Translations under genes and position numbers: made by a program
DNA from: Henriciella sp.
Lineage (GTDB): Bacteria > Pseudomonadota > Alphaproteobacteria > Caulobacterales > Hyphomonadaceae
DNA length: 64,000 bases
Assembly: GCA_021776655.1 (NCBI GenBank)
Contig: JAJFFK010000023.1
Coordinates: forward strand, 1-64,000
Direction: 5' to 3'
Part shown: positions 14,491-63,503 of the stretch, in pieces
Layout of the letters: each line of letters opens with the position of its first letter
Position numbering within the stretch: the stretch's first letter is position 1
The notes under the pieces: generated by a model
Databases searched by the model: none
What the model saw: the letters and a program-made list of their open reading frames with translations, nothing else
What the model was told of the DNA's origin: nothing

Positions 14491-14501
14491 GAGGGCGCCA
14501 C

Positions 14502-14663: not shown

Positions 14664-15540
14664 CCCGTCAGAGGATATTGACGCACATAGCGGGGTTGAA
14701 ACCACCGGGCATTCCTGGGACGGGATCAAGGAATTGAACAACCCGCTGCCGCGATGGTGGCTGATCTCTTGGTACATTTCGATTGTCTGGGCCATCGGTT
14801 ACATGATCGTGATGCCAGCCATTCCGGCCTTGCCCGGCATGGGCACCAATACGCTCGGCGTGTGGGGGCAGTCTGATCGAACGAATGTCGCCACTGCTGT
14901 GACCGAGTTGAAAACGGAACGGCAAGCAAGTTCCATCACATTGCTTGATGCATCACTGGAAGAGATTGAAAGCGATCGTGAATTGCAGCAATTCGCACTG
15001 GCAATGGGTGAGAGCCTGTTCGGAGACAATTGCGCCACCTGCCACGGCGCGGGTGGGCGCGGGGCCAAGGGGTATCCGATTTTGGCTGATGATATCTGGC
15101 TGTGGGATGGTACGCTCGATGGTATCGAGACAACCCTGCGCTATGGCATTCGCCATGACAGCAATGATCAGACAAGGTTTTCTATGATGCCCCGATTTGG
15201 ACGCGACGGAATTTTGACATCTTCACAAGTCGACGATCTTGCCGAATATGTTCTGAACTTTTCCGACCGCTCTCACGATCATGCAGCGGTGACCCGCGCC
15301 GCGCCGATCTGGCAAGCTCAATGTGCCAGCTGCCACGGCGAGATCGGCACAGGGGACCGCTCTGTTGGGGCCCCAAATCTCACCGATGCAGAATGGTTAT
15401 ATGGCAGCGAGCCTCGGGATATTCGCGAGACGATTTACAATGCGCGCAATTCGCATATGCCCGCCTGGGAGGGCCGACTTGACGATGCCTCAATCAAGGC
15501 GCTGGCTGTCTATGTCCACACGCTGGGCGGGGGTGAATAG
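14656..15540 (+). CDS. ccoP: cbb3-type cytochrome c oxidase subunit III (diheme)
   Basis: A 294-aa diheme cytochrome c anchored by the helix in LPRWWLISWYISIVWAIGYM (near residues 32-52). Heme sites are CATCHG near 126 and CASCHG near 221, each followed by a methionine ligand candidate (MMPRFG and HMPAWEG). CcoP receives electrons from soluble cytochrome c and delivers them to CcoO. The start at 14656 was preferred over a codon 45 bases upstream because MSDPSEDIDAHSGVETTGH has the family N-terminus and GGAGG lies eight bases before it. Confidence 0.96.
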   Translation: MSDPSEDIDAHSGVETTGHSWDGIKELNNPLPRWWLISWYISIVWAIGYMIVMPAIPALPGMGTNTLGVWGQSDRTNVATAVTELKTERQASSITLLDASLEEIESDRELQQFALAMGESLFGDNCATCHGAGGRGAKGYPILADDIWLWDGTLDGIETTLRYGIRHDSNDQTRFSMMPRFGRDGILTSSQVDDLAEYVLNFSDRSHDHAAVTRAAPIWQAQCASCHGEIGTGDRSVGAPNLTDAEWLYGSEPRDIRETIYNARNSHMPAWEGRLDDASIKALAVYVHTLGGGE

Positions 15541-15549
15541 GAGTATCGC

Positions 15550-17019: not shown

Positions 17020-17525
17020 TGCCCACGACTATGACGCCTGCATCCTCACGCCCCAAGAAGGAACTCACTGGTCGCCATGTCCTGTATTGGATGGTCGGGT
17101 TTTTCGCGATCATGTTCGTCGTAAATGGTATTTTTCTATTTCACGCGATCACCAGCTTCCCCGGCGAGGACGTGAAGAAATCCTACCTTCAGGGCCTGAC
17201 CTATAACCAGACGCTCGACGCGCGCGCGCGGCAAGTTGATCTCGGCTGGCAAGCTGAGATAGGCGTCACAGATGGCACACTTATCTTGCAACTCGACGAC
17301 AAATATGACGTCCCCGTATCGGGCCATGAGGTTATTGGCTCGCTACGCCGTCCGGCAACACAGCGCGCCGATATCAGTCTGCATTTCAACGCCGGACGAA
17401 ACGGCGTGTACACAGCCGATACAGGCGCCATCGAACCGGGCCGCTGGGACGTACGACTAAATGTGTCTGATCCCGACACCGGTCAGATTGTCTTCTCGGC
17501 GCGAAAAACAATTATTGTCAGATGA
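17019..17525 (+). CDS. ccoH: FixH/CcoH family protein
   Basis: A 168-aa protein with one N-terminal membrane helix (LYWMVGFFAIMFVVNGIFLFHAI) and a periplasmic domain with the FixH pattern (FPGEDVKKSYLQGLTYNQTLDARARQVDLGW). CcoH is needed for stable cbb3 assembly and associates with CcoN or CcoI. Its start overlaps the ccoG stop (TAATG) and its stop overlaps the ccoI start (ATGA), so the three are translationally coupled. Confidence 0.93.
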   Translation: MPTTMTPASSRPKKELTGRHVLYWMVGFFAIMFVVNGIFLFHAITSFPGEDVKKSYLQGLTYNQTLDARARQVDLGWQAEIGVTDGTLILQLDDKYDVPVSGHEVIGSLRRPATQRADISLHFNAGRNGVYTADTGAIEPGRWDVRLNVSDPDTGQIVFSARKTIIVR

Positions 17526-19911: not shown

Positions 19912-20092
19912 TCGACCAACGGCGATTTAGGGTCAGGACCTATTAATTTGGTGCTTTCTATGGTCTCACTTTCCGCGCTGGACGGCGTCGAAAACGCTTG
20001 AAAATGCTCGCAGCTTTTGTCACTCATGAAAACCTTGGCGTTGCGGCAATTGGCGACTTATGTTCAGCCTATATCGGTGGGAGTCTTGGAAG

Positions 20093-20794
20093 ATGTCTGT
20101 TCCGAATACGATCAAGGTCGATGTTCATATCTGGACACTCGATGTTTCTGACGCAGAGCTTGCCGCGCTGGAGCGTCTGTTATGCGCCGATGAACGCACA
20201 CGTGCAGCGCGATTTTTCCACCGTCAAGACGCGGCGCGATGGACGGTGTCGCGGGGCCGTATGCGTCAGGCATTGGGCGCGGCAACTGCATCTGATCCGG
20301 CGTGCCTGATCTTTGCAGAAGAACCACATGGGCGTCCGACGATGTCTTGCGGCGATAGCGCCCTGTCATTCAATCTCTCACACTCTGGCGCATTAGGGTG
20401 TTTGGCACTCTGCTGGCAAGCCCGTGTCGGCGTCGATATTGAACAGACCAGATCATTGAACGAAGACGAGATGAACTGGCCCCTGTCCGCCGCTGAACGA
20501 TCCGTTCTTGCAACCTGCTCAAGGGCAGCAAAGACTGATCGGTTCTTCCGGTTCTGGACGCTGAAAGAAGCTTTCATGAAGGCCGATGGACGGGGGGCCT
20601 CGCTGCCAACGGACAGCTTTGATATCGGTTGGAGCGATGCTGGCGATGCGCGCTTGCTACAGCTTCACGATCAGCCAGAGGCGCCGGCACAATGGCGATT
20701 TTCCGAGCACAGCCCATTGCCCGACTACCACGCTGCATTGGCCGCAAAAACAGATGGCCACGCTGTTTCTGTGGCGTGGCATGATATATGCTAG
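20093..20794 (+). CDS. Sfp-type 4'-phosphopantetheinyl transferase
   Basis: This enzyme moves phosphopantetheine from CoA to the serine of carrier domains. The 233-aa product has the family core: LSFNLSHSGALGCLAL near residue 93, VGVDIEQTR near 114 (magnesium-binding aspartate and glutamate) and the FWTLKEAFMKADGRG block near 157-171 (WxxKEaxxKa). Length and the first motif place it with the broad Sfp/EntD type rather than AcpS. The ATG at 20093 is chosen because the preceding in-frame ATG has no ribosome site; the choice is not certain. It is followed 176 bp later on the same strand by the NRPS-PKS genes, whose two carrier serines are the obvious targets. Confidence 0.93.
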   Translation: MSVPNTIKVDVHIWTLDVSDAELAALERLLCADERTRAARFFHRQDAARWTVSRGRMRQALGAATASDPACLIFAEEPHGRPTMSCGDSALSFNLSHSGALGCLALCWQARVGVDIEQTRSLNEDEMNWPLSAAERSVLATCSRAAKTDRFFRFWTLKEAFMKADGRGASLPTDSFDIGWSDAGDARLLQLHDQPEAPAQWRFSEHSPLPDYHAALAAKTDGHAVSVAWHDIC

Positions 20795-20812
20795 TTAACG
20801 AGATATCGATTT

Positions 20813-20852
20813 GTTCAATCTACGCCGCTGCTTGGGTCGATTTGGATTGAAC
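20813..20852 (+). promoter_or_regulatory. Inverted repeat before the NRPS-PKS operon
   Basis: GTTCAATC (20813-20820) and GATTGAAC (20845-20852) form a perfect 8-bp inverted pair with a 24-bp spacer in the 176-bp gap before the NRPS gene. The gap is visibly richer in A+T than the genes on both sides, and no terminator-like hairpin with a T-run was seen. The pair may be an operator; this is inference. The NRPS ATG at 20971 is preceded by GAGGGACAA. Confidence 0.35.
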
Positions 20853-20970
20853 TAGTCATTGCGATTGGGCCAGATCTTCCGATCTCGGATAATCCATCGC
20901 TAATTTGGCTTGATTTTATGAACCAAATCCTAGGGCCAATGGTTTATACGGGTAGAATGACGAGGGACAA

Positions 20971-23900
20971 ATGGTAGAGTTGCGGGCTGTATTCATTGGG
21001 ACGGGGCGATTGCTTATCGCCTGCGCAGAGCAGTGGACCGCGAGCGGCCACACGCTGCACGGCGTAATATCCGACTGTCCAGATGTCTCCACTTGGGCGC
21101 GCGAGAATCAGATCCCGCGCCTATCTGTCGCCGAAGATCAGACCGCTTGGTTATCACGCGCGCCGTTCGATTACCTGTTCAGCGTGATCAACCATGCGAT
21201 CATTCCATCGGAAGTTCTGGCGCTGCCACGCCGCCGTGCGATCAATTATCACGATGCGCCGCTGCCGCACTATTCCGGCTTTAACGCGACCTCATGGGCA
21301 ATCATGGAGGGGGCCAAGCAACATGGCGTGACCTGGCATGAAATGTCGGACGCAGTAGATAGCGGCGGTATTCTGGTTCAGAAAATGATCGATATCACGC
21401 CTAATGATACCGGTTTCACACTTGGCGTGAAATGTATCGAAGCGGGCCTTGAAAGCTTCACAGAGCTGCTCGGCTTGCTCAGTGGTGAAGCGACAAGTGG
21501 CCGCCCCATGCCGGTGCAGACGCAAGGGCCACGTCAGGATTTTCACCTGCGCTCCGACCGTCCTGAGCTTGGCTTGATTGATCTGGCACAACCAGCAAGC
21601 CATTCGCACGCCCTGATCCGCGCGCTTGATCTCGGCATGGATGACAATTGGATGTGCCGCCCGAAATTGGCGCTGTCAGACCGTATGCTGGTCATTGGCG
21701 AAGCCAAGATCACACAATCGAACGGCGCATCTGCTGGAGAAGTGCTGGCGATGAATACAGACAGCCTGACCGTGGCGACCAGCGATGACGCCCTGATCTT
21801 GCGCGATCTGACTGACGTGTCCGGCTCACCTGTCGATCTATCCAGCCTTGGCTTACAGGTTGGCCAGACCCTCGCGCCTGAACTGGCGCTTGTCAGCGAC
21901 GCCGCCGCAGCCTTTGATGCTAAGCGCAGCAAGTCTGAGCGTTTCTGGGTCAAGCGGTTGGCCAGCCAGCATGGCCCGGCACTCGCCGAACTGATCGCGC
22001 ATAACGGACCTGCGACCCCAGCCGTGGATCAACGCACATTGCCCGCGAACCTCGGCTCAGTTGCCCCCCTTGCTGCACTGGCGACCTATCTTGCGCGCAC
22101 CGGAGAAGAGGCTGCTTTTGATGTCGCCCGTCATCAATCGGCACAAGCCGATCACCCAAGCGCCTATGCAACGGCGCTGCCTTTGCGCCTCACACCGGAC
22201 TTGAGCGCGACGTTCACCAAGCTCTGCCAGCACGTGACCGATGAGCAGGCGCTGCAGGACAAACATGTCACTTATGCGCGTGATATTCGCCTGCGCTATC
22301 AGGCTTTACGCGATATCGCGGATCAGACCGACGCGCTGACCATCGGGGTTCGCCAGGCAGACGCCCTCGCGCTGGCCCCGCATCAAGCGCTGGTTGAGGG
22401 CACTCACCTGACACTCGTACTGGGCGAACCCGGACAGGCATTTGGTTGGGTCTATGACCAGAGCGCGATGTCGCAAGTCGCCTTCACAGCCTTCGCTGAC
22501 CGTATAGATACGCTGCTTGCCGATGTGGCGGCCCACCCAGATCACACGCTTGGCGACTTGCAAATCCTGCCCGCGCCGGAACAAGAATGCTTGCTGACGA
22601 CCTGGCAGGACACCGCTGTGCCATATGACGACACTGCCTGCATCCACACATTGTTCGAGGCGCAAGTCGCCCGCACACCGGACGCGGCGGCGATCGTCTT
22701 CAATGATGATAGCCTGACCTATCGCGAGCTTGACCTGCGGGCCAATCAGGTCGCCCAGCGCCTACAGTCTGAAGGGATCGGTCCCGACGATCTGGTTGCG
22801 ATCTGTATCGAGCGCTCGCTTGACCTGATGATCGGACTGCTGGGGATATTGAAAGCTGGCGGCGGCTACGTGCCGCTGGACCCGGTCTATCCACGCGAAC
22901 GCCTTGGCTTGATGCTCGAGGACGCGAAGGCGAAAGTCGTGCTCACACAGCGCCATCTGAGTTCACGATTGCCGACGCATGGCGGCGCTCAAATCGCGAT
23001 TGAAGATATCGCAATCGATGGCTCTGGAGCGCGCCCAGCCTCCGCTGTGACTTCGAACAATCTGGCTTATGTGATCTTCACATCAGGCTCCACCGGTCGC
23101 CCGAAAGGCGTGATGGTTGAGCACCGCACGGTCGCAAACTTCTTCACCGGCATGGACCAGGTGATCGGGACAGACCCCGGTGTCTGGCTCGCGGTAACCA
23201 GCGTGTCGTTCGACATCTCCGTGCTTGAACTTTTCTGGACCCTGGCCCGTGGGTTCAAGACCGTGATCCAGGCCGAAAGCGACCGTACATCCCTGGTCAA
23301 TGGAGCAGATGATGCGACCGCGCAGGTCACGGCCACATCCCAACCGATGGAATTTGGCCTGTTCTATTTCTCCGCCGATCAAGGCAGCGCCGAGCCCGGC
23401 AAAGCTTACCGCTTATTGCTGGAAGGTGCACGCTTTGCCGATGCAAACGGGTTTAGCGCCGTGTGGACGCCGGAACGTCATTTCCACGAATTTGGCGGAC
23501 TTTATCCCAACCCCGCCGTGACCACCGCCGCCCTCGCAACGATCACCAAGAATGTTGCGCTACGGGCAGGCAGCTGCGTCTTGCCGCTGCATAATCCGCT
23601 ACGTGTTGCCGAAGATTGGGCCGTGATTGACCAATTGTCAGGTGGCCGGGTTGGCTTGTCCTTCGCCTCTGGCTGGCACGTCAATGATTTCGCCTTCATG
23701 CCGGACAATTACGAGCGCCGCCGCGAGATCATGCTGGAGAGCATCGAAATCGTAACCAAGCTATGGCGCGGTGAGGAGGTCACCGTTCCAAACGGCAATG
23801 GCGACCCGATCTCTGTCAGCGTTCTACCGCGTCCGGTACAGGAAAAGCCACCCATGTGGATTGCCGCAGCAGGCAGCCCCGACACCTTCAAGATGGCAGG

Positions 23901-26835
23901 CCGGATCGGGGCCAACATTCTGACCAATATGCTCGGCCAAAACCTTGACGATCTCCGCGACAAATTTGCCGCTTACCGCACCGCCCGCGCCGAGGCCGGG
24001 TATGATGGTCCCGGCAATATCACCGTGATGCTGCACACATTTGTCTGCGAGGACACCGCCAAAGCCAAAGAGATCGCCCGCAAGCCGTTTTGCGACTATC
24101 TGATGAGTTCGTTCGATCTGGTCAAAATGGCCCCGACAATGTTCCCGGCTTTCCGCCAGCCGTCACGCAGCGGCGGAGATGATCTCGATACAAGCGCCTT
24201 CACCGAAGAAGACATGGAAGCCTTGATGGACCATGCCTTTGATCGCTATTTCGAAACGGCCGGCCTGTTTGGCTCCCCCGAAAACGCACTGGCAATTGTC
24301 GAGAAACTCAAATCCATCGGCGCGAGTGAAGTTGGCTGCCTGATTGATTTCGGGGTCAACCCCGAGATCGTGCTGGCAAGCCTGCCCCACCTCAACCGGC
24401 TGCGCCAACTGGCCAATCCAGCCCATGAAGCAGATTTGAGTGAGACCAGCTCGGTCGCCGTTGATTATACTTTGGCCGAACAAATCAGCCGTCACAGTGT
24501 CACGCATATGCAGTGCACACCATCAATGGCGCGCCTGTTGATCAGTGACCCGGATGGCCTGGCCAGCTTCAGACAGCTTGACCATTTACTGCTCGGCGGC
24601 GAAGCCTTGCCGCAAGATCTGGTCGATCAGATACAACCCGTGATGACCGGCCAGCTACACAATATGTACGGCCCAACTGAAACGACGATCTGGTCAACGA
24701 CGTCCACGATTACCACCGATCAGCCGATTACGATTGGCCACCCGATTGCCAATACCGTGATCCGCATCCTTGATCGCCAGGGCCAGCTTGCCCCGGCAGG
24801 TGTGGCAGGGGAGCTGTACATTGGCGGCGCCGGTATCGTACGTGGTTATCTTGGCCAGCCTGAGCTGACGGCGGAGCGTTTTATCGCTGACCCATACAGG
24901 CCGGGCGAGCGTCTCTACCGCACCGGCGACCTTGCGCGCTATACGACAGGTGGGGCGCTCGACTTCCTTGGCCGCCTTGATTATCAGGTCAAGGTCAATG
25001 GCTACCGGATTGAGCTGGGTGAGATTGAAACCGTTCTGGGCCGCCACAACGCCGTCTGGCAAAGTGTCGTCAGCGCGCGTCACGACAACGGCACGCCCCA
25101 ACTGGTTGCATATCTCAAGACCACAAGTGATGCCGCATCCGGATCGGACAGCAATCATGTCGCGCGTTGGCAGGCACTATGGGACGACGCCTACCGCCAG
25201 ACCGAAACGACAAATGATCCAAGGTTTGATATTTCCGGCTGGAATGACAGCTATAGCGGCGCGCCGATTGCGACTGATCAGATGCGCGAATGGCTGGACC
25301 AGACCGCGCACAATATTCTCGCTCTGTCGCCGAAGCGCGTGCTTGAAATTGGCTGCGGCACCGGCATGGTCCTGTTCGCAACATTGGCGGAACTTGATCA
25401 CTATACCGGCCTCGACCTGTCATCGCATGCGCTCGAGACAATCGCCGCCAACCTGACCCACGCCGAGCGCCAGAAAACCACGCTGTTGCAACAGCCTGCC
25501 CATAGGCTGGACCAGATCAGCGCCGAGACATTCGATACGGTGGTGATCAATTCGGTCGCCCAATACTTCCCCGATAGCGCCTATCTTGCCGATGTCATTG
25601 CGCGCGCCTGTGATCAAGTTAGCGATGGCGGTCATATCTTCCTCGGCGACATTCGCAGCCGCGACCATGTCGACGCCTTCCATACCGCGGTCGAGCTGCA
25701 TCAGGCCCCCGGAGACCTAACCAGCGACGCTATATCAGCACGCATCGACAAACGAATTGCGCAAGATAACGAACTGGTCGTCTCGGAAAGCTGGTTCCAC
25801 GCGCTGGTCCGCGACCTGCCACGCCTGACCAGGGTTGAGATCAATCTCAAACGCGGGCTGGCCAGCAATGAGATGATCGATTTCCGCTATGATGTGGTGT
25901 TGCATGTTGGCGGTGCGGCCGAGGCGGCGGTGGATCTACCGCCTGTAAACAATACCAAAACCCTGGCAGAGATCAAAACGGCGCTGGCCGACACGCCGCC
26001 AGTACTGTGGCTGACCGACCTGCCCAATGCTCGCCTGTCAGGCCTTTACAAAGTGCGGGCGGCAATGGCCCAGACTGTAAACGCTGACGCGCTGCGCCAG
26101 ACCTTCGCCGCGTCGGACGCTGAAGCCATCAATCCGGGGGCGCTGGTCGAACTTGACCCCGATTATGATGTCACAATCGTCTGGGCCCGTTCAGGTAATC
26201 CGGACCTATTCGATGCAATACTGCGCCATAAAAGCCTCGGCCCGGCGCGGGTACAGATGCCGGCTCCGGCTCACGATCAGGCGCTGGCAACCTATACCAA
26301 TCAGCCCGCCGAACAGGTCACAGACCGGGGCGCTCTGTTTGACGGTTTGCGCACCCATCTGCGCGAGGTTCTGCCCGACTATATGATCCCATCTGCGTTT
26401 GTCGTGATGGACGCGTTCCCATTGACCCCGAACGGCAAGATCGATCGCAATGCCCTGCCCGCGCCAGGCGCATCAATCGCCCGCTCAGCCGAGGTCTATG
26501 TCGCCCCGACGAACCAACTGGAAGAAACGATTGTCGACATCTGGAAGGATTTGCTGGATATTGAAAAAGTTGGTCTACGCGACAATATCTTTGATCTTGG
26601 GGCCAATTCCCTGCTGACGGCGCAGGCCAATCAACGCCTGTCCCAACGTCTGGATCGCAAAATCTCGCTGGTTGCGATGTTCCGCTATCCAACCATCGAA
26701 GCGCTGGCCGGTCATCTCGGCGGTGATACCGCTGCTCCAGGAGCGACAAGCAAGCGAACAGAAGACCGCGAGGGTCGGCGCAAGGACGCCGCCTCCCGTC
26801 GCCGTGAACTACGTGAAAGGCGTCAAGGCGCATGA
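20971..26835 (+). CDS. NRPS: formyltransferase / partial condensation / adenylation interrupted by monooxygenase and methyltransferase / carrier
   Basis: A 1954-aa loading-type NRPS. Domains in order: formyltransferase (1-310; catalytic Asn92, His94, Asp130 with the same spacing as in Fmt); C-terminal lobe of a condensation domain (324-535; no HHxxxDG anywhere); adenylation part 1 (553-776, TSGSTGRPKG); luciferase-like monooxygenase of the MupA/Atu3671 type (about 790-1150, starting MEFGLFYFS); adenylation part 2 (YGPTETT near 1234, GRLDYQVKVNGYRIELGEIE near 1335); SAM methyltransferase (about 1397-1650, VLEIGCGTG near 1457); adenylation end (LTPNGKIDR near 1817); carrier (LGANSLL, Ser1880); basic charged tail. 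Pocket residues align to D-I-L-Q-L-G-M-I-W-K, matching the glycine code. The stop overlaps the PKS start by 4 bp. Confidence 0.93.
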   Translation: MVELRAVFIGTGRLLIACAEQWTASGHTLHGVISDCPDVSTWARENQIPRLSVAEDQTAWLSRAPFDYLFSVINHAIIPSEVLALPRRRAINYHDAPLPHYSGFNATSWAIMEGAKQHGVTWHEMSDAVDSGGILVQKMIDITPNDTGFTLGVKCIEAGLESFTELLGLLSGEATSGRPMPVQTQGPRQDFHLRSDRPELGLIDLAQPASHSHALIRALDLGMDDNWMCRPKLALSDRMLVIGEAKITQSNGASAGEVLAMNTDSLTVATSDDALILRDLTDVSGSPVDLSSLGLQVGQTLAPELALVSDAAAAFDAKRSKSERFWVKRLASQHGPALAELIAHNGPATPAVDQRTLPANLGSVAPLAALATYLARTGEEAAFDVARHQSAQADHPSAYATALPLRLTPDLSATFTKLCQHVTDEQALQDKHVTYARDIRLRYQALRDIADQTDALTIGVRQADALALAPHQALVEGTHLTLVLGEPGQAFGWVYDQSAMSQVAFTAFADRIDTLLADVAAHPDHTLGDLQILPAPEQECLLTTWQDTAVPYDDTACIHTLFEAQVARTPDAAAIVFNDDSLTYRELDLRANQVAQRLQSEGIGPDDLVAICIERSLDLMIGLLGILKAGGGYVPLDPVYPRERLGLMLEDAKAKVVLTQRHLSSRLPTHGGAQIAIEDIAIDGSGARPASAVTSNNLAYVIFTSGSTGRPKGVMVEHRTVANFFTGMDQVIGTDPGVWLAVTSVSFDISVLELFWTLARGFKTVIQAESDRTSLVNGADDATAQVTATSQPMEFGLFYFSADQGSAEPGKAYRLLLEGARFADANGFSAVWTPERHFHEFGGLYPNPAVTTAALATITKNVALRAGSCVLPLHNPLRVAEDWAVIDQLSGGRVGLSFASGWHVNDFAFMPDNYERRREIMLESIEIVTKLWRGEEVTVPNGNGDPISVSVLPRPVQEKPPMWIAAAGSPDTFKMAGRIGANILTNMLGQNLDDLRDKFAAYRTARAEAGYDGPGNITVMLHTFVCEDTAKAKEIARKPFCDYLMSSFDLVKMAPTMFPAFRQPSRSGGDDLDTSAFTEEDMEALMDHAFDRYFETAGLFGSPENALAIVEKLKSIGASEVGCLIDFGVNPEIVLASLPHLNRLRQLANPAHEADLSETSSVAVDYTLAEQISRHSVTHMQCTPSMARLLISDPDGLASFRQLDHLLLGGEALPQDLVDQIQPVMTGQLHNMYGPTETTIWSTTSTITTDQPITIGHPIANTVIRILDRQGQLAPAGVAGELYIGGAGIVRGYLGQPELTAERFIADPYRPGERLYRTGDLARYTTGGALDFLGRLDYQVKVNGYRIELGEIETVLGRHNAVWQSVVSARHDNGTPQLVAYLKTTSDAASGSDSNHVARWQALWDDAYRQTETTNDPRFDISGWNDSYSGAPIATDQMREWLDQTAHNILALSPKRVLEIGCGTGMVLFATLAELDHYTGLDLSSHALETIAANLTHAERQKTTLLQQPAHRLDQISAETFDTVVINSVAQYFPDSAYLADVIARACDQVSDGGHIFLGDIRSRDHVDAFHTAVELHQAPGDLTSDAISARIDKRIAQDNELVVSESWFHALVRDLPRLTRVEINLKRGLASNEMIDFRYDVVLHVGGAAEAAVDLPPVNNTKTLAEIKTALADTPPVLWLTDLPNARLSGLYKVRAAMAQTVNADALRQTFAASDAEAINPGALVELDPDYDVTIVWARSGNPDLFDAILRHKSLGPARVQMPAPAHDQALATYTNQPAEQVTDRGALFDGLRTHLREVLPDYMIPSAFVVMDAFPLTPNGKIDRNALPAPGASIARSAEVYVAPTNQLEETIVDIWKDLLDIEKVGLRDNIFDLGANSLLTAQANQRLSQRLDRKISLVAMFRYPTIEALAGHLGGDTAAPGATSKRTEDREGRRKDAASRRRELRERRQGA

Positions 26836-29800
26836 CCGATCAATCCGACGATTCCCTCCGCGACGATCCCGAGATCGCAATTATTGGCATGGCCGGGCGC
26901 TTTCCCGGGGCGAACAATATTGATGCGTTCTGGGAAAATATCAGAGACGGGGTTGAGTCGATCCTGCCGCTCAGTGACGAGGAATTGCTCGAAGCTGGCG
27001 TGACCCGCACTGAGCTGTCCGACCCCAACTATGTCAAAGCCTGCCCGATCCTTGAGGATGTCGACAAGTTCGATGCCAGCTTCTTTGGCTTCAGCCCGCG
27101 CGATGCCTCGGTGATGGACCCGGCCCATCGCCTGTTTCTGGAGATCGCCTGGGCAGCGGTTGAGCATGCCGGATATACGGCGCTACCGAACGAGGGTTCG
27201 GTTGGCGTTTTTGCCGGGGTCGGCGCGCCGCTCTACATGATCGAGAATGTTCGCACCAATCCCGAGCTGATGCGGTCGATGGGCGAGTTTCTGGTGCGCC
27301 ATACTGGCAATGATATGAATTTCCTGGCGACCCGTGTGTCCTATGAAATGGACCTGCGCGGGCCAAGCATGAATGTGCAGACCGCCTGTTCTTCGGCGCT
27401 GACCTCATTGCATCTTGCCGCCCAGAGCCTGCGCCTCGGCGAATGTTCGATGGCGCTGGCGGGTGGATCGACCGTCCTGTTTCCGCACAATCGCGGATAT
27501 ATGTATCAAGAAGGCGAGATTTACTCGCCGGATGGCCATTGCCGCCCGTTCGACGCAAAAAGCGCTGGCACCGTGTTCGGCAGCGGCGCAGGTGTGGTTG
27601 TTCTGAAACGCCTCTGCGACGCGCTGGATGACGGCGACACCATCCACGCTGTGATCAAAGGCTCTGCGGTCAATAATGATGGCGCCGTCAAAGTCGGTTA
27701 TCTTGCCCCCGGCGTAGAAGGCCAGGCCGAGGTTATCCGCGCCGCCCTTGCCGACGCCAAGATTGGCGCTGAGACCGTCACCTATATCGAAACCCATGGC
27801 ACCGGTACGTTGGTCGGTGATCCGATCGAAGTTGAGGCTCTGAACGAGGCGTTCAGTGACGCAAGTACAGCGCCGGCCTCTTGCGGTATCGGGTCGGTAA
27901 AATCCAATATTGGCCACCTTGGCGAGGCTGCGGCCGCGGCATCGCTGATCAAGGCGGTTATGGCTCTGAAACACCGCCAAATGCCGCCCAGCCTTGGCTT
28001 TGAGACCCTCAACCCGGCAATTGATTTTTCCGAAAGCCCGTTCTTCGTCAATGACACATTGCGCGACTGGACCTCCACATCCGGCCCGCTGCGCTGCGGC
28101 GTGACAGCGCTTGGGGCTGGCGGCAGCAATTGCCATGTCATTCTGGAACAAGCGCCCGAGCCAATCCCCGGTGAGGATGAACGCACCCAGCAACTTCTGG
28201 TGCTCAGCGCCAAGACCAAAGCCGCGCTTGATCGAGCGTCTGACAGGCTTGCCGATGCGTTGGAAGCTGATCCCTCTATCGATCTTGCCGACGCGGCCTA
28301 TACGCTGGCACTTGGTCGCCGCACGATGCCGCACCGCCGGGCTCTGGCTGCACGTGACAGAGCCGATGCGATTGACCAATTGCGCACGCGTAAACCACAA
28401 CGCATGGTGACTGATCAGGCCGAAGGTGGTGTGGCCAAAACCGTTTTCATGTTCCCGGGCGGCGGCGCGCAATATGCCCGCATGGGATATGAATTGTACA
28501 CTGAGGAACCGGTCTACAAGCAAGCTATTGATGATTGTCTGGCCATCATCAATCCGAAATTGGGCCGCGATCTTGGCGCGCTGATGTTCGCCCCTGCCAA
28601 TCAGATCGAAGCGGCGACCCGCACGCTGGAGCAGCCCTCGCTGACCCTGCCATCGCTGTTTGCCACCGAATATGCGATGGCCTGCCTGTTCAAGCATTGG
28701 GGCATGAACCCCGACGCGATGATTGGCCATTCAATGGGCGAATATCTCGCCGCATGTCTGGCTGATGTGGTCAGTCTGGAAGATGCGATCAGCTTGGTCA
28801 TGCTGCGTGGGACATTGTTTGAAAAAGTTGCGCGCGGGCGCATGCTGGCTGTGCCACTGCCTGAGGCGGAGGTGCGTGCCGCCGCGCCGCAAGAGATTGA
28901 CATTGCCGCCGCCAACGCGCCGGACCTGTGTGTTGCGTCTGGCCCTATCGCCGCAATAGAGGCGCTCGAAACGGCGCTCGCCGCCCACGACGTCGAAACA
29001 ACCCAGGTTCGCATCGATGTCGCGGCCCATTCACGTATGCTGGATCCGATCCTGGGAGAGTTCCGCGCCTTATGCAAAACGATCCGGTTTAGCCCGCCAC
29101 AGCTACCTTTTGTCTCAAATGTCAGCGGCACCTGGATCACCGATGCAGAGGCCTGCGACCCGGAATACTGGGTCACACATCTGCGCTCAACCGTGCGCTT
29201 TGCCGATGGCGTAAAAACCCTGCAATCCTTAGGGAATCCGGTTCTGCTTGAGGTTGGGCCGGGTCGAACATTGTCAATGTTGGCAAAAGCTCAAGACGAG
29301 CCGATGCGCCATGCCTTCAACACCATGCGCCACCCGCAGGAACCGGCCAGTGATCTGGCTTATGCGCTGACCAGTTTCGGACGCCTCTGGGCCGCCGGAG
29401 CGGATGTCGAGTGGAGCGCTTTCTACACCGACCAGTTACGCAATCGCATCGCGCTGCCAACCTATCCGTTTGAGCGCCAGAGCTACTGGATCGAACCGGG
29501 TACAGCCAATGCGCCTGCGGCGTCACAAGATCTGATCAAGCGTCCGGACCTGCAAGACTGGTTCTACAGCCTGGGGTATTGCCAAGCGCCATTGGTTGAG
29601 ACCTCAGATGAGGCCGACACCAAAACCTGGCTTGTCCTGTCAAGCAATGGCCGCGATGGTCGCAATCTGGCGCGCGCGCTAGCCTCGCAACGGATGACCC
29701 CACAACAGGTGACCCAAGTGCGTCATGGCAGTAAACTTGCCCTGCATAGTGATGGGGTCTGGCGCTGTAATTTCGACGACCCTGAGCAATATGTCGCCTT

Positions 29801-32800
29801 GCTTGAGGCGGTTGAGAAGACCAGCGGCTGTCCCGATCATGTTGTTTTCATGGCGGCAGAAACGCGCCGCAACGCCTCAAATCCGCAAAACATGCCAGGC
29901 CTAAATGAGCATTTCTTCCATCCCGCATACCTGGTTCAGGCGCTTGGCGGATTGTCTGGCGAGGCGCAGTTCTCCTTGGTCACTTCCGGCCTGTCGGGAA
30001 TTGATGGCGAGACCGTTCGCCCTGAAGCGGCGCTTGCACTCGGCCCGGTTCTGGTTGCACCGCGTGAGCTTGAGAACTTGCAAGCGCGCTGCATCGATCT
30101 TCCGCGCAAAACTCTGTTGCGGGGCCAGCACAAGAACCTGACCACGCGCCTGATCGCAGAATTACGCACGCAAACCGATGATCAGATCGTTGTCCTGCGC
30201 TCTGACGAGCGCTGGGTGCGGCAAATCCAGCCGCTGCCACTCTGCGAAATCGCTGAAAATACATCCGCAGAGGACTGGCTACGCGAAGATGGCGTCTATC
30301 TGATCACCGGCGGTCTCGGCGGAATCGGGCTTGAGGTATCCGAACATCTGGTGCGCCGCAAACCGGTCAAACTCGTGCTACTCGCGCGTGCTGAACTGCC
30401 TGATGAGGCGCAATGGGATACAATCCTGGAGACCTCTGGCTCCAGCCGTGTGGCCCAACGCATTGCCCGCGTGCGAAAATTACGCGCGATGGGCGCGCAG
30501 GTTATGGTGGTCACGGGCGATCTCACTGACCCCGCCAGTTTGCGCAGCGCTCTCGACACGGCCCGCGCCACGTTCGGGCCCCTGAACGGGGTCCTGCACG
30601 CAGCAGGTGTGATGGACGACGCACCGCTAATGGCCAAGACAACCGAAGCGATGACGCAAGTTCTGGCGGCAAAAGTTGGCGGCACGCTGGCTCTGGATAG
30701 CTTGATCACTGAACCCCTCGACGCGTTTATCATGTTCTCTTCGGTGGCCTCTTTCCTCGGCCTGCCGGGCCAAATTGACTATACCAGTGCCAATGCTTTT
30801 CTGGATGCGTTTGCATGTGAGCGCGCGCAACGCGCCAGCGGTCGTACCTTGGTGATCAACTGGAATGCCTGGCGCGATATCGGCATGGCCGCCGCCCAAC
30901 ACGATCAGAACCAGCACGGGCGCGAGCCTGACATGCCGAGCCAGCATCCCGCGCTTGATGGCTATAGCGATCTTGGCGAACAACGCCTGGTCACTGCCAC
31001 GTTCAGCCGCGATGATGACTGGCTCCTGTCTGAACACGTGGTCAAGGATGGCACCGTACTTCTACCCGGGACAGCATTTTTGGAGCTGGCCCACGCGGCC
31101 TATTGCGAAGGCCGCGAGCCCGGCCCGGTTGAACTGACAAATCTGACCTTCCTGTCGGCCTTTATCGCTGATCCCGGCGCGCCAAAACGGCTGAGCATCC
31201 AGCTCACACCCAATGAAACCGGGCACGACATCGCGATGTATGCCGGGGCAGACCTGTCAGCGACCCCGCTGGTCATCGGAGAGGCCCGGCCATGCACGGC
31301 GGCACTTCCTGCTGCGCTTGACCTACCGGCGCTCGGCGCACGCTGCACGACCCGCGAATGGACGTCTCCGGATGGCTTTCTTGATCAGAGCTTCATGGAT
31401 TTCGGGCCGCGCTGGGCCAACATGCTCAAGGTACAGTATGGCCACAGCGAAGCCTTGCTGGAGCTGCGCCTTAGCGATGATTTCAAATCTGATCTTGATG
31501 GCTACGCCCTGCATCCGGCCTTGCTCGACATGGCCACTGGCGGCGCGCAGGCTTTGATCAAGGATATTGACCTGGCCAAGGATTTCTTCGTGCCGATGGG
31601 CTATGAGCGGGTGCGGGTCTTCGCCGCGATGCCGCAACACGTGTTCAGCCACGTGCGCTGTCTACACGCAACTGATAAGGCTCTGGCTTATTTCAATATC
31701 ACTTTGACCGATGCCAGCGGCCAGGTGTTTGCTGAAATTTCCCGCTTCACCATGCGCCGCATCGAAACCGGCGCAACCTTGGCACAGAATGCCCAGCGAG
31801 ACGGCCAGGCCGCTCATCAGAGCCGTGATGATGCTATGGCCGCAATCCTGCGTGAAGCCATCACAGTGCCAGAGGGCCTTGATGCGTTTGACCGGATTAT
31901 GGCTCAGCCGGGACTAGTCCAGGTCGCCGCCTCTTCGGTTGATGTTCAGCTATGGAGCCGCCAACTTGCGGCGAGCGCAACAACCGCAGACCGAGAGGCA
32001 AATCCTGAAGGCTTCCAGCGCCCTGAACTCGATGAGGATTATGCCGCGCCGGTCTCGTCAGTGGAGAAAACCCTGGCCAACATCTGGGCCGGTTTGCTGG
32101 GTGTGCGCCAAGTCGGGATCAATGATGACTTCTTCGAGCTTGGCGGCAACTCGCTGGTCGGCGTGCGCTTGTTCGCCGCCGTTCGAAAGAAATTCGACGT
32201 CGCGCTACCGCTCGCCACCTTGTTCGAAGCCCCAACAATTGCACAATTGGCTGAGCTTCTGCTCTCGCGCGGGGTCGAAGGAAATACCGCTATAGATGAG
32301 GCAACCCCGGACTGGTCTCCATTGGTCAAGATTAGAGCCGGTAATGTTAATCTGCTCCCACTTTACTGCACGCATGGCTCTCGCGGTAATGTCCTCGTGT
32401 TTAAAAATCTGGCGGACCGTTTAGCTCACAACCGCCCGGTCTATGGCTTGCAGGCGCGCGGCGTCGATGGCGTACTGGCCCCCGATGAGTCGATTAATGC
32501 CATGGCGACACGCTATGTTGAGGCGATAAGAACCGTCCAGCCCCATGGGCCATACTTGCTAGCCGGCAATTCGGGAGGCGGTGTTATTTCCTTTGAAATG
32601 GCACAAATCCTGACTCGCGAAGGTGAGATCGTCGAACTCGTCATGATGATCGACTCACTGGAACCAACCGAGATGCGCGAGCCGATCACCTGGTTAAATC
32701 GCTTCAGATATCTGCACCGTGTAAAACCGCAGCGTTTCATCAAACTGCCAAGTGTCGTCTGGCAATATCAGATCAAACCCAGACTGTATAAACTTCTTGG

Positions 32801-33146
32801 AAAGACAATTTCAGAACCCAAACTAACTCTGCTTGAAGAGGCTGGAGAGACCGTTCATCAAGCCTACTTCCGGAGCCAGGATGCCTACTCGCCTGAGCCT
32901 TATAGCGGTGATGTTCTGGTCATTGTTGCCAAGGATGCCCGCATGCATTTCCTGCGCAGCGGCTCACATCTTGGCTGGCAAAACTATGTCAGCGGAAAAC
33001 TGCTCAGAGCTGAAGTAGATGCTGAGCATTTAAGCTTGTTCAGTGAGCCATCAGTTTCACAAATGGCAACGGCATTTGATGACACTATCAGCGCCGAATA
33101 TTGTGTTGAGCAAACCCTGTCCAAAATTGAGAAATCTCGGGCCTGA
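26832..33146 (+). CDS. Type I polyketide synthase KS-AT-KR-DH-carrier-thioesterase
   Basis: A single-module, 2104-aa PKS. KS covers residues 14-440 (Cys186 in QTACSSALTS, His322 in ETHGTG, His362 in NIGHLGEA). AT covers about 535-830 (Ser634 in GHSMGEY; the AAHS-type specificity motif leaves the extender unclear, malonyl- more likely than methylmalonyl-CoA). A structural half-KR leads to the catalytic KR (TGGLGGIG near 1160, Tyr1317 in QIDYTSAN). DH follows, instead of preceding, KR (His1402 in SEHVVKDGTVLLPG, Asp1566 in HPALLD). Carrier Ser1774 is in LGGNSL. Thioesterase has Ser1914 in AGNSGGG, Asp1941 and His2066. KS accepts the aminoacyl chain from the upstream NRPS; TE releases the product. 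No enoyl reductase is present. Confidence 0.95.
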   Translation: MTDQSDDSLRDDPEIAIIGMAGRFPGANNIDAFWENIRDGVESILPLSDEELLEAGVTRTELSDPNYVKACPILEDVDKFDASFFGFSPRDASVMDPAHRLFLEIAWAAVEHAGYTALPNEGSVGVFAGVGAPLYMIENVRTNPELMRSMGEFLVRHTGNDMNFLATRVSYEMDLRGPSMNVQTACSSALTSLHLAAQSLRLGECSMALAGGSTVLFPHNRGYMYQEGEIYSPDGHCRPFDAKSAGTVFGSGAGVVVLKRLCDALDDGDTIHAVIKGSAVNNDGAVKVGYLAPGVEGQAEVIRAALADAKIGAETVTYIETHGTGTLVGDPIEVEALNEAFSDASTAPASCGIGSVKSNIGHLGEAAAAASLIKAVMALKHRQMPPSLGFETLNPAIDFSESPFFVNDTLRDWTSTSGPLRCGVTALGAGGSNCHVILEQAPEPIPGEDERTQQLLVLSAKTKAALDRASDRLADALEADPSIDLADAAYTLALGRRTMPHRRALAARDRADAIDQLRTRKPQRMVTDQAEGGVAKTVFMFPGGGAQYARMGYELYTEEPVYKQAIDDCLAIINPKLGRDLGALMFAPANQIEAATRTLEQPSLTLPSLFATEYAMACLFKHWGMNPDAMIGHSMGEYLAACLADVVSLEDAISLVMLRGTLFEKVARGRMLAVPLPEAEVRAAAPQEIDIAAANAPDLCVASGPIAAIEALETALAAHDVETTQVRIDVAAHSRMLDPILGEFRALCKTIRFSPPQLPFVSNVSGTWITDAEACDPEYWVTHLRSTVRFADGVKTLQSLGNPVLLEVGPGRTLSMLAKAQDEPMRHAFNTMRHPQEPASDLAYALTSFGRLWAAGADVEWSAFYTDQLRNRIALPTYPFERQSYWIEPGTANAPAASQDLIKRPDLQDWFYSLGYCQAPLVETSDEADTKTWLVLSSNGRDGRNLARALASQRMTPQQVTQVRHGSKLALHSDGVWRCNFDDPEQYVALLEAVEKTSGCPDHVVFMAAETRRNASNPQNMPGLNEHFFHPAYLVQALGGLSGEAQFSLVTSGLSGIDGETVRPEAALALGPVLVAPRELENLQARCIDLPRKTLLRGQHKNLTTRLIAELRTQTDDQIVVLRSDERWVRQIQPLPLCEIAENTSAEDWLREDGVYLITGGLGGIGLEVSEHLVRRKPVKLVLLARAELPDEAQWDTILETSGSSRVAQRIARVRKLRAMGAQVMVVTGDLTDPASLRSALDTARATFGPLNGVLHAAGVMDDAPLMAKTTEAMTQVLAAKVGGTLALDSLITEPLDAFIMFSSVASFLGLPGQIDYTSANAFLDAFACERAQRASGRTLVINWNAWRDIGMAAAQHDQNQHGREPDMPSQHPALDGYSDLGEQRLVTATFSRDDDWLLSEHVVKDGTVLLPGTAFLELAHAAYCEGREPGPVELTNLTFLSAFIADPGAPKRLSIQLTPNETGHDIAMYAGADLSATPLVIGEARPCTAALPAALDLPALGARCTTREWTSPDGFLDQSFMDFGPRWANMLKVQYGHSEALLELRLSDDFKSDLDGYALHPALLDMATGGAQALIKDIDLAKDFFVPMGYERVRVFAAMPQHVFSHVRCLHATDKALAYFNITLTDASGQVFAEISRFTMRRIETGATLAQNAQRDGQAAHQSRDDAMAAILREAITVPEGLDAFDRIMAQPGLVQVAASSVDVQLWSRQLAASATTADREANPEGFQRPELDEDYAAPVSSVEKTLANIWAGLLGVRQVGINDDFFELGGNSLVGVRLFAAVRKKFDVALPLATLFEAPTIAQLAELLLSRGVEGNTAIDEATPDWSPLVKIRAGNVNLLPLYCTHGSRGNVLVFKNLADRLAHNRPVYGLQARGVDGVLAPDESINAMATRYVEAIRTVQPHGPYLLAGNSGGGVISFEMAQILTREGEIVELVMMIDSLEPTEMREPITWLNRFRYLHRVKPQRFIKLPSVVWQYQIKPRLYKLLGKTISEPKLTLLEEAGETVHQAYFRSQDAYSPEPYSGDVLVIVAKDARMHFLRSGSHLGWQNYVSGKLLRAEVDAEHLSLFSEPSVSQMATAFDDTISAEYCVEQTLSKIEKSRA

Positions 33147-33184: not shown

Positions 33185-34657
33185 TTAGTCTGCGCCTCTT
33201 TTCAAAAACAGCACCCGCACATCATTGATCAAGCCATCAACAATTGGACGAAACAATAGCGCCAATGACAGACCATAGGTGAGCACTCCGACTGGGACTA
33301 AAATCAACAATTGAACCGCACTCGGAGTTGCAGCCAAACTCGGCATCATAACCTGCGCGAGAATCAGCGCCGCAGCCATCAATACCGTCGAAACCAATTG
33401 TGGAGCGAGCACACGCCAAAGCTTTGCCATATTCAGGTTCAAATGGCGAAGAACTTCCATCTGGAACGGAAAGAAAAAGACAATATTAGCAATCAGGTAA
33501 GCGCCCGCCATGGCTGGTAAAGTGCCAATATATATGCCGATAGAAAAGGCGAACAAAAAGCCGACAGTCCGGATCAGCGCCCACCTCAGCAAGACATCTG
33601 CACGCCCTAACGCCTTCCAAACCTCATTCGTAATCGCGGCGAGTGACTGCAAAACGCCAACGAAAACTAGTATCGTTAGGATTGGACCAACCGCATCCCA
33701 CTGTGGCCCAAACATCAGGGCGACAAAGGGCGTCGCGACGATCGCCAGACCGGTCATCATCGGAAAGACAAGTGTACTCAGCACCGACAAAGCTTTCAGG
33801 TAAACTACGCCAAGCTGGGCCCGGTCATGCTTGAGTTTCGCCAAAGCTGGATATAGCGCGAAACTTGCCCCATTCCCCAATGTATGAACGGGCATCAGCA
33901 TCACCTGATACGCCCGGCCATAATATCCAAGCGCGGCAGAGTCCATAAAGCGGCCAATCAGTATGTTGTCTGTATTGCGGTTTATGAAGCCGACAAAAGC
34001 GGTCCCGGTCAAACCTAGCGAGAAAGGCAGAACCTGAATAATTTCATCCGCCTTATAGAGTAATTTTATCGGCGCATGATGACAGAGTAACCCACCAATC
34101 ATTTTCACCAGATAATGGGTTATTTGCTGCCAGACTAAAGCCCATATTCCGAACCCTTTCAATGCAAGCACAATCGCAACAATCGCCGAGATTATGGCTG
34201 CACTCGCATCGATAATGGCAATCGTTCGAAATCTGAAAGAGCGTTGCAGCCAGGCCATCGGCACAAGAAAAACGCAGTGCATGAGCAATACGCACGACAA
34301 CCCACGTACCAAAGACTCAACAACCGGCTCATTAAAGAAAATCGCAATCCAGGGTGCGACAGCGAAGACCAGTAATGTCAGACAGCCCCCGAGCGCGAGA
34401 TTGGTCCAGAACGCACTCGACCAAAATGCCGCCGATGGCTCGTCAGCGCGCACCAAAGCAGCTGAAATACCGAGATCGTTGAACATGGTGAAAAATGCCA
34501 CAAATGCCATCGCCATCGCGACCAGACCGAAATCTGCAGGGGTTAAGAGACGCGCAAGGATCGGCAAAACAATGATAAATTGAAGGGCTGTTTTAGAGAC
34601 CGCTACTGTGACATTAATCACAACACCATTGGCCGTTTTTCGTGCGAACTGGTTCAT
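33185..34657 (-). CDS. Wzx/WzxC-like polysaccharide flippase
   Basis: A 490-aa membrane protein with about 12-14 helices, of the polysaccharide-export branch of the MVF/MATE-like superfamily. The N-terminus (TALQFIIVLPILARLLTPADFGLVAMAMA, residues about 23-51) is the WzxC pattern, followed by FNDLGISAALV. Such proteins flip lipid-linked oligosaccharides to the periplasmic leaflet. It converges with the PKS gene, 38 bp apart, and is somewhat poorer in G+C than the core genes (28 of 60 in one sampled line). It could serve the exopolysaccharide genes elsewhere; a role in exporting the NRPS-PKS product cannot be excluded but nothing shows it. Confidence 0.88.
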   Translation of the reverse strand: MNQFARKTANGVVINVTVAVSKTALQFIIVLPILARLLTPADFGLVAMAMAFVAFFTMFNDLGISAALVRADEPSAAFWSSAFWTNLALGGCLTLLVFAVAPWIAIFFNEPVVESLVRGLSCVLLMHCVFLVPMAWLQRSFRFRTIAIIDASAAIISAIVAIVLALKGFGIWALVWQQITHYLVKMIGGLLCHHAPIKLLYKADEIIQVLPFSLGLTGTAFVGFINRNTDNILIGRFMDSAALGYYGRAYQVMLMPVHTLGNGASFALYPALAKLKHDRAQLGVVYLKALSVLSTLVFPMMTGLAIVATPFVALMFGPQWDAVGPILTILVFVGVLQSLAAITNEVWKALGRADVLLRWALIRTVGFLFAFSIGIYIGTLPAMAGAYLIANIVFFFPFQMEVLRHLNLNMAKLWRVLAPQLVSTVLMAAALILAQVMMPSLAATPSAVQLLILVPVGVLTYGLSLALLFRPIVDGLINDVRVLFLKRGAD

Positions 34658-62357: not shown

Positions 62358-63257
62358 CTATTTGCCGCCGTACAATTCCTGCTCTTTAATGCGTAGGGTG
62401 GATGCGCAAGCTCCGGCATGAAAGACCGCGCGTAGAAACCAGAAATTACGATGGCTTGGAAAGGGCAAACTTACCAGCCCGGCACCAACACAGACGCCAC
62501 ACTTTAGGGCTGACAATAGCGTAAGCTTAACCCGTACCAGGCGCGCCGTGTCCGGCAAAGCGTGTAATCCATAACTGATACCAGATCTGAATTTTCGGCT
62601 TTTTAGCCAGCTAAATGTCAGGCGTCCAGCTGGGACAGGTTCATGTGAGATGGCTTTATCTGCAATTCCAAGCTTGGCACCGGCGCGCCAGATCCGATAG
62701 AAAAACTCTGTATCCTCACCGCCTGTCCGGCCTTTCTCCAGTAAAAATCGCTGACCCGCAATCATCGGTGCGCTGACCCGGATCAAGGCGCTGCCAGCAT
62801 GGCCCGTCTGTACCACACCATCACACCGTTCCGGGACACTGGTGTGATAGTCACGGCGAACAATCCAGGCGGGGGCATCCGCACCATAGGTCGCGATAAC
62901 TGGGCCGAACACAGCATCACATGTCTCGGCCTTGGCCGTTGCGACCAAATGCATGATCCAATTGGGCTCGGCAATTTGATCATCATCAAAAAAAGCCAAC
63001 CAATCGCCGCGCACAGCGTCCAGGCAAGCATTTCGTACAATCGAAATATTCCGGGCCGGGGCGTGAATATATTTGACCGGCAGAGCTATCGTTTCAGCCG
63101 CCGCCTCAACCTGTTTGCGTGCCGATGGCGTGTCATCATTATCCGCGACGATGATTGCAAGACTGACCCCATTCGGCACAATCTGGGCATCCAACGATCT
63201 CAAAGCCTCAATAATCGAGGCCCGACGAAACGTGCAGACGCAAATGTCGATATGCAT
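62358..63257 (-). CDS. Family 2 glycosyltransferase, ExoM-like
   Basis: A 299-aa GT-A glycosyltransferase. MHIDICVCTFRRASIIEALRSLDAQ begins the domain; VADNDDTPSA near residue 40, DWLAFFDDDQIAEPNW near 90 (DxD-type metal site), and GRTGGEDTEFFYRIWRAGAKLG near 182 (ED catalytic region) match ExoM, which adds a glucose to succinoglycan. A likely acceptor helix follows with a C-terminal hydrophobic stretch. The ATG at 63257 is used, not the TTG at 63269. It probably belongs to an exopolysaccharide locus beginning at the right edge. Confidence 0.87.
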   Translation of the reverse strand: MHIDICVCTFRRASIIEALRSLDAQIVPNGVSLAIIVADNDDTPSARKQVEAAAETIALPVKYIHAPARNISIVRNACLDAVRGDWLAFFDDDQIAEPNWIMHLVATAKAETCDAVFGPVIATYGADAPAWIVRRDYHTSVPERCDGVVQTGHAGSALIRVSAPMIAGQRFLLEKGRTGGEDTEFFYRIWRAGAKLGIADKAISHEPVPAGRLTFSWLKSRKFRSGISYGLHALPDTARLVRVKLTLLSALKCGVCVGAGLVSLPFPSHRNFWFLRAVFHAGACASTLRIKEQELYGGK

Positions 63258-63503
63258 GATCTTGGTCAATCCGATTAAGTTGAGACAAATCTAAGCAAGC
63301 CTAATGCCAGATGGAACCGCCTCGCAGCAACGTCAATTAGAGGCTCAAGCGAGACTTGTAATCCCTCCGGCCCTGGCAAGCCATCAAGGGTTTTCAAACG
63401 GACTCGATTATGATGTTGAGCGGGTATGAAATTTGAAAATATGAGCGGTCCGCGATTTAGCCAAACCCGGCGAGTGTCCAATTTCTGATGAAAACCATGA
63501 CAG
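63258..63503. other. Intergenic region between ExoM-like and beta-barrel genes
   Basis: This is the larger part of a 321-bp gap between two divergent genes. No coding frame with a ribosome site or family resemblance was seen. It contains A+T-rich stretches (for instance around 63420-63440, TGAAATTTGAAAATATGA), which could hold an enhancer site for the sigma-54 promoter at 63504-63518, but no clear inverted repeat for an activator was recognised. Confidence 0.4.

Follow-up and report, generated by a model that had tools for sequence, protein, structure and literature searches.

A two-protein NRPS-PKS assembly line of Henriciella, conserved across phyla, and its possible role in decorating an exopolysaccharide

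Gene and domain content of the locus

The stretch of DNA analyzed here comprises 64,000 nucleotides of Henriciella sp. (contig JAJFFK010000023.1 of assembly GCA_021776655.1, positions 1 to 64,000) and is referred to as the window. It carries a cassette of three genes encoding a phosphopantetheinyl transferase (PPTase), a nonribosomal peptide synthetase (NRPS) and a type I polyketide synthase (PKS), followed by a flippase gene (Table 1). A reading of the sequence made before this analysis (the original prediction) had described the PPTase, the 1954-aa NRPS, the 2104-aa PKS with its KS-AT-KR-DH-ACP-TE order and the 4-bp overlap of the last two genes, and this layout was borne out by open reading frame (ORF) calls, Pfam and NCBIfam, the overlap being ATGA. 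The frameshift that it had considered as a possible objection did not turn up, as the three frames contain no internal stops and the catalytic residues are present. The start that it used for the PPTase, at 20093, is an ATG internal to the ORF. A counterpart of the PPTase, with 37-38% identity, precedes the NRPS in four relatives of the genus (G008, G015, G024, and G028). Elsewhere in the genome of the window (G000:C19, locus L170 5375-19038) there is a polyunsaturated fatty acid synthase-like cluster with PfaD-type and PfaA-like pieces and a 2040-aa KS/FabA-like protein, which includes a second HetI-like PPTase. A scan for promoters and terminators returned about what chance would give (7 found versus 7.1 expected, and 16 versus 13.7).

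Concerning the NRPS, the formyltransferase (F) domain and the doubly interrupted adenylation (A) domain foreseen in the original prediction are both present, with a luciferase-like monooxygenase (LLM) inserted between motifs a4 and a5 and, further on, a methyltransferase in the a8-a9 loop. Its partial condensation (C) domain persists as a remnant or linker rather than as a full domain, and of its several carrier domains a single one was found by Pfam and NCBIfam. The HHxxxDG motif of a canonical elongation module was not found in residues 301-560, while a PF00668 search at E<=1e-30 recovered no condensation domain in the genome of the window; the stretch between F and A is thus read as a C remnant or linker, and a full C domain at this place was dropped. 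The LLM (residues 793-1145, flanked by FDIS at 747 and YGPTE at 1233) scored 483.5 bits against TIGR04020, for which the curated cut-off is 244.45, and so belongs to the MupA/Atu3671 family; its closest solved relative is the PuwE monooxygenase domain (6KET, E 4.1e-107). The methyltransferase region, which carries an S-adenosylmethionine (SAM) motif between a8 and a9, matches the interrupted A domain with methyltransferase of structure 5WMM (E 1.5e-51), which we take to be TioS. The pocket code of the A domain is D I L Q L G M I W K, which on the standard code table we assume to specify glycine. Among solved structures the closest match to the A piece is LgrA's second A domain, presumably glycine-specific as well. 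The two traits of a myxothiazol-type A domain, a glycine-type pocket and a monooxygenase inserted at a4-a5, are therefore found together here, the first of them on our assumed reading of the code.

Table 1. Positions of the cassette genes, their domains and two further polysaccharide-type genes in the window.
Feature	Positions	Strand	Evidence
PPTase, Sfp/HetI-type 4'-phosphopantetheinyl transferase	20060..20794	+	PF01648 E 2.4e-17; NF042922 HetI 118.5 bits (cut-off 370, score below)
NRPS, 1954 aa, F-(C remnant)-A[LLM, methyltransferase]-PCP	20971..26835	+	ORF call, Pfam, NCBIfam, alignment
Formyltransferase domain, N92, H94, D130	20971..21855	+	PF00551 4.8e-19, PF02911
Condensation-domain remnant or linker without HHxxxDG	21928..22605	+	Motif absent; inside NF047350 match
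Adenylation domain, N part (a1-a4), pocket D748, I749, L752	22654..23289	+	PF00501 562-773
MupA/Atu3671-family FMN-dependent LLM, between a4 and a5	23347..24405	+	TIGR04020; 6KET
Adenylation domain, middle part (a5-a8), pocket Q1181, L1207, G1209, M1232, I1240, W1241	24472..25170	+	Alignment
SAM methyltransferase, between a8 and a9, motif EIGCGTG at residue 1459	25315..25674	+	PF08242 1.1e-13; 5WMM
Peptidyl carrier domain (PCP), S1880	26524..26718	+	PF00550
Type I PKS, 2104 aa, KS-AT-KR-DH-ACP-TE	26832..33146	+	ORF call, Pfam, NCBIfam, alignment
Ketosynthase (KS), C186/H322/H362	26871..28001	+	Pfam, alignment
Acyltransferase (AT), GHSMG and VAAH motifs	28443..29279	+	Pfam, alignment
Ketoreductase (KR), K1281/S1304/Y1317/N1321	30291..30878	+	Pfam, alignment
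Dehydratase (DH), H1402/D1566	30945..31775	+	Pfam, alignment
Acyl carrier domain (ACP), S1774	32070..32261	+	Pfam, alignment
Thioesterase (TE), S1914/D1941/H2066	32358..33101	+	Pfam, alignment
Wzx-type polysaccharide flippase, convergent with PKS	33185..34657	-	PF13440 4.5e-79
Family 2 glycosyltransferase (GT2), edge of second exopolysaccharide piece	62358..63269	-	PF00535; reciprocal best hit to cassette-block gene in four relatives

Distribution, co-inheritance and conservation

The line is not the isolated oddity that the original prediction had supposed. The search that it proposed in other Hyphomonadaceae, performed with the whole NRPS, revealed relatives in five of the 28 other genomes of the genus and in none of the eight genomes of other genera of the family, while among 24 genomes of the order two gave A-domain matches only. 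The F part with the linker was found in 10 of 385 genomes of the class, own genome included. When genome contigs were searched with the whole NRPS as protein query, 13 pattern matches came up and none was confirmed; alignment of the F domain succeeded instead, with at least 588 matching stretches, 574 of them confirmed as encoding an F-domain relative, and the best 80 were kept as named loci. These 80 comprise 62 with a full F-A(LLM)-PCP protein, 10 in which it is cut by an end, five with complete ORFs in which no LLM was recognized and three without an F ORF. A PKS lies within the fetched stretch in 53 of the 62 full loci, a count that may be low since long antisense ORFs in high-GC loci can mask the PKS in ORF calls; L076 is presumed to be such a case from a 2127-aa ORF on the opposite strand.

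Among the loci with both NRPS and PKS are those of Rhodobacterales, Methylobacterium, Phenylobacterium, Ramlibacter, Caldimonas, a gammaproteobacterium, Myxococcus, Planctomycetota, Chloroflexota, and Gemmatimonadota, and the two-protein line without the methyltransferase occurs in Alpha-, Beta-, and Gammaproteobacteria, Myxococcota, Planctomycetota, Chloroflexota, and Gemmatimonadota. The methyltransferase was found in only two of the 62 full loci (L069 and L070), which form one clade with the window and four relatives of the genus (support 1.0). In a version carried on a Deinococcus plasmid the F domain is a separate ORF. Distances between NRPS proteins and between PKS proteins are correlated (r 0.953 over 49 pairs, with none of 999 permutations as high), indicating that the pair travels as a unit. 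Both proteins of the window are 55-58% identical to those of the genus relatives over nearly their full length.

For the active sites, 73 NRPS and 52 PKS sequences were aligned, drawn from the window, G008, G015, G024, G028, the 80 named loci and seven annotated reference regions; those of the loci and reference regions had passed a length or domain filter, so that the presence of domains is partly a matter of selection, and G015 and L069 are most likely one contig counted twice. The F triad (N92, H94, D130) and the PCP serine are kept in all 73 NRPS. In a separate 23-row alignment N92 and D130 show no variation, and a single row (L044 of G399) has Phe at the place of H94. The pocket residues D, I, L, Q, G, M, W and K do not vary, position 299 is variable (M in 41, L in 17, F in 12, C in two, A in one) and at position 330 there are 65 I and eight V. 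In the 52 PKS the KS Cys-His-His, AT Ser and His, KR Lys-Ser-Tyr-Asn, DH His-Asp and the ACP serine are invariant; the TE serine is kept in 51 and the TE histidine in 45, the other seven being gaps. A nearly invariant pocket and active sites over so many phyla suggest one conserved product core. The line is real, intact and widespread.

Two loci of other build were also noted. In Aliiroseovarius (L056 15007-28746) a 3082-aa NRPS/PKS comes after the F-A(LLM) protein, and nos genes lie alongside, a case in which a similar starter protein is put to another use. In Pyrinomonadaceae (L102 9980-20275) two tandem F-A-PCP-TE proteins, in which no monooxygenase was recognized, lie near Wza- and Wzc-like genes.

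Association with exopolysaccharide genes

The original prediction placed the line directly behind cbb3 oxidase genes, and cbb3/fix genes do lie upstream of the PPTase, at 12031-19744, with mostly housekeeping genes downstream of the cassette. However, since the cassette of the relatives sits among exopolysaccharide (EPS) genes, the link to cbb3 was dropped and this neighborhood looks incidental. What had been missed is the EPS link, which becomes apparent from the flippase beside the PKS and from the synteny of the relatives. In G008, G015, G024, and G028, as well as in G011 over two contigs, the cassette adjoins flippases, glycosyltransferases and a Wzc-like gene, with a polysaccharide deacetylase also beside it in G008, G015, and G024. 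Reciprocal best hits against four relatives revealed that on the contig of the window the EPS block is in two pieces, at 20.06-34.66 kb and 62.36-84.27 kb, 28 kb apart. The first piece, PPTase-NRPS-PKS-flippase, matches one end of the block of the relatives and the second matches the rest; the latter lies mostly beyond the window and contains Wzc-like, Wzy-like, Wza-like, sulfotransferase and glycosyltransferase genes. The same contig also holds, at 80.6 kb, the only PF02397 initiating sugar transferase of the genome (E<=1e-10). Compared with G008, G015, G024, and G028, the flippase of the window shares 56-58% identity with the one closest to the PKS and 25-27% with the second flippase of their blocks. 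With flippase, glycosyltransferases, initiating transferase and Wzc/Wza linked to it, the cassette qualifies by conserved linkage as a putative member of a Wzx/Wzy-type EPS cluster, both as a block and in the split form. One gene of the second piece was found in eight of the 29 genomes of the genus, namely all six with the NRPS plus G023 and G027, and in none of the other 21; its co-occurrence with the NRPS (6/6 versus 2/23) gives a Fisher value of 5.9e-5, a statistic that ignores shared ancestry.

Further observations were made on the block itself. A DegT-type sugar aminotransferase gene at 40508-41662 of the window (minus strand) stands among unrelated genes. Its reciprocal best hits, with 33-40% identity across 258-278 residues, are aminotransferases that border the EPS block of three relatives, and it may be another scattered EPS gene. 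The best conserved EPS-block gene, with 65-67% identity to four relatives, is a sulfotransferase-family gene beyond the window (C16 77103-78029), which suggests a sulfated EPS. In G008 (L030 11489-13562) two alpha/beta hydrolases resembling feruloyl esterases (BD-FAE) are encoded between the PKS and the flippase, with homologs in G015, G024, and, in part, G011. Together with an alpha/beta hydrolase of Myxococcus L113, such recurring enzymes would fit an ester-linked acyl group. A conserved protein beside the cassette with no Pfam or NCBIfam match (C16 77957-79144) was considered as the acyl-transferring enzyme; it lost weight when its relative in L069 was seen to carry E...GR.IAEAM, a motif that we take to be typical of GT-B glycosyltransferases.

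Beyond the genus, the nine other genomes of the class with a hit include four with clear EPS neighbors (G082, G213, G310, and G388) and one with a few (G340). Fourteen plasmid regions were opened among 30 listed of 2510 records, and in 11 of these the NRPS type lies near polysaccharide genes, Deinococcus included, four of the 11 being labeled by phmmer search only and one (Methylobacterium) on thin evidence; regions of Burkholderia glumae and Streptomyces carry assembly-line genes of different organization. In a rough comparison, at least one glycan-type gene was recognized in 48 of the 80 named loci and in two of 21 control stretches, and at least two in 36 of 80 and none of 21. Grouped by record title, 34 of 41 alphaproteobacterial loci have glycan neighbors versus 14 of 39 other or unassigned loci. 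A GT2 gene stands between PKS and NRPS in 26 of the 32 loci with a recognized PKS upstream of the NRPS, and in annotated records it overlaps the NRPS side or both neighbors, or is 2-3 bp away; the six without it include three of Myxococcus type (L107, L113, and L132). The cassette is thus strongly tied to EPS genes in Alphaproteobacteria.

Taken with the domain content, the intact active sites and the co-inheritance of NRPS and PKS, this synteny and co-occurrence lead us to favor, with moderate confidence, a dedicated and conserved two-protein line that makes one small acyl group for EPS. Several observations weigh against it. G027 has counterparts of the flippase, a glycosyltransferase and GT2 (49-50% identity) and neither NRPS nor PKS in the 20 kb fetched, so that this EPS pathway does not need the line. 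In the Aliiroseovarius plasmid region (34 kb) no glycosyltransferase or flippase is annotated, no EPS neighbor was recognized in G399, and the hits in G293, G308, and G364 are on short contigs or of other architectures. Outside Alphaproteobacteria the 14 of 39 loci with a glycan neighbor give p 0.025 versus the controls, which come from alphaproteobacterial genomes and were scored with hidden Markov models trained mostly on alphaproteobacterial genes, hence the roughness of the comparison. The Myxococcus loci have no glycan genes recognized in their fetched flanks, L113 has an alpha/beta hydrolase between PKS and NRPS, and no acyltransferase common to the loci was identified.

These observations bear on the alternative of a small free secreted metabolite, such as a signal, a metal ligand or a reactive enamide, beside which EPS genes would lie through shared variable islands or plasmids. 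The absence of glycan neighbors in Myxococcus and in 25 of the 39 non-alphaproteobacterial loci, the TE at the end of the PKS and the many copies on plasmids would all suit such a compound. We nevertheless regard it as rather unlikely, given that the gene order with EPS genes is kept in the genus relatives, that the split block is retained on one contig here, and that both the 6/6 versus 2/23 co-occurrence and the intervening glycosyltransferase speak against it. The latter gene would also suit a small glycosylated compound or lipid-anchored glycoside made with the neighboring glycosyltransferase and flippase, in which case the PKS might be iterative and give a polyene. HetI is linked to heterocyst glycolipids, and the best NCBIfam model of the PPTase is HetI, though below its cut-off; however, the second piece contains Wzc-, Wza-, and Wzy-type genes, which belong to a polymer pathway, and we find this explanation improbable. 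That the line is decaying or idle in the genome of the window, where the EPS block is split and the PKS-flippase hydrolases of G008, G015, and G024 were not found in the window, is very hard to reconcile with open frames, fully kept catalytic residues and 55-58% identity to relatives, and G028 likewise has no such hydrolase in its 39.9 kb.

Proposed product and comparison with known systems

For the acyl group destined for EPS, the following route can be proposed. The PPTase would arm both carrier domains, the A domain would load glycine onto the PCP and the F domain would formylate its nitrogen. By sequence, the F domain has closer matches in ArnA (E 2.8e-15) and other formyltransferases than in the LgrA F domain (E 2.1e-5), and its nearest solved relatives include sugar formyltransferases, so its substrate may be a sugar. 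Its fusion to A and PCP, however, argues for a carrier-bound amino acid, and formylation of a PCP-bound amino acid is what we predict. The LLM, with reduced flavin mononucleotide (FMNH2) and a reductase from elsewhere, would hydroxylate the alpha carbon, and in this clade the embedded methyltransferase could methylate the nitrogen or cap the new oxygen. Subsequently, the PKS would add one extender unit, probably malonyl, which KR and DH would reduce and dehydrate. An AFH ending of the AT motif is linked to malonyl-CoA (PMC3908369); the motif ends in AAH in 51 of the 52 PKS, and the malonyl assignment is accordingly tentative. If the nitrogen is kept, the TE would hand off a (formamido)(hydroxy)butenoyl group. 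Alternatively, the carbinolamide may collapse as in myxothiazol, shedding formamide and leaving a glyoxylyl start that would yield a 4-oxobutenoyl group. The line would thus either keep the nitrogen or start from glyoxylyl, and the methyltransferase of this clade argues for a kept nitrogen or a capped new oxygen. An enzyme of the EPS pathway would then attach the acyl group to a sugar within the lipid-linked repeat unit, and the neighboring flippase would export this unit. We infer the chemical steps, the acceptor sugar, the transfer and the product structure, transfer to the sugar being the least supported step. The glycine loading, formylation, oxidation, methylation and single reducing and dehydrating extension of the original prediction are, at the level of sequence, consistent with the intact active sites. 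Our more specific proposal, that a modular NRPS-PKS line conserved across phyla fixes a reactive formamido- or oxo-butenoyl group on EPS, is put forward tentatively.

If the product does sit on EPS, the orphan clusters of marine alphaproteobacteria that have this type of NRPS-PKS line would be surface-polymer genes, which cluster-mining programs would misfile, and assembly-line chemistry would here serve the building of a cell-surface polymer rather than secreted natural products. The decoration would perhaps give cross-linking or adhesion, and it may bear on the surface attachment of such bacteria.

Literature searches returned no paper that appeared to treat this NRPS-PKS system. The parts are of known kinds, while their combination and the polymer context did not turn up in the literature searched. 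With regard to context, a type I PKS gene is found in RkpA/WcbR clusters for the biosynthesis and export of capsular polysaccharide (PMC3908369), which resemble the window, by cluster context alone, in having a PKS amid polysaccharide genes; the available part of that source mentions no NRPS partner or F domain, unlike the line described here. With regard to the starter module, LgrA of linear gramicidin (F-A-PCP) and CongA of conglobatin (F, glycine A domain, PCP) likewise have F with A and PCP at the start of the chain, and for conglobatin the proposal is that glycine, once formylated, is handed to a PKS (PMC4504003). The line of the window differs in the C remnant between F and A, in the monooxygenase and methyltransferase within A and in the one PKS module that follows.

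Myxothiazol and melithiazol have glycine modules in which a monooxygenase, placed between a4 and a5, is described as hydroxylating glycine, after which the carbinolamide is cleaved (PMC10204066). These A domains have a flavin monooxygenase at the same place as here, a likeness drawn from description and not from sequence; that module ends a chain by carbinolamide cleavage to an amide, whereas by domain order the module of the window starts a line, with an F domain before it and a PKS after it. Among monooxygenases of the same family by name and match, MupA has been shown to use FMN and a separate reductase to alpha-hydroxylate a beta-keto thioester carried on an ACP (PMC10952193), and the PuwE domain has been proposed to act in 2-hydroxylation of the puwainaphycin acyl chain together with an aminotransferase (PMC4219810). 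MupA works in trans and the PuwE domain lies inside a PKS-NRPS hybrid, while the LLM lies inside a glycine-type A domain. Finally, the A domain of 5WMM has its methyltransferase after a8, as here, and the A domain of the window differs from it in being doubly interrupted and glycine-type.

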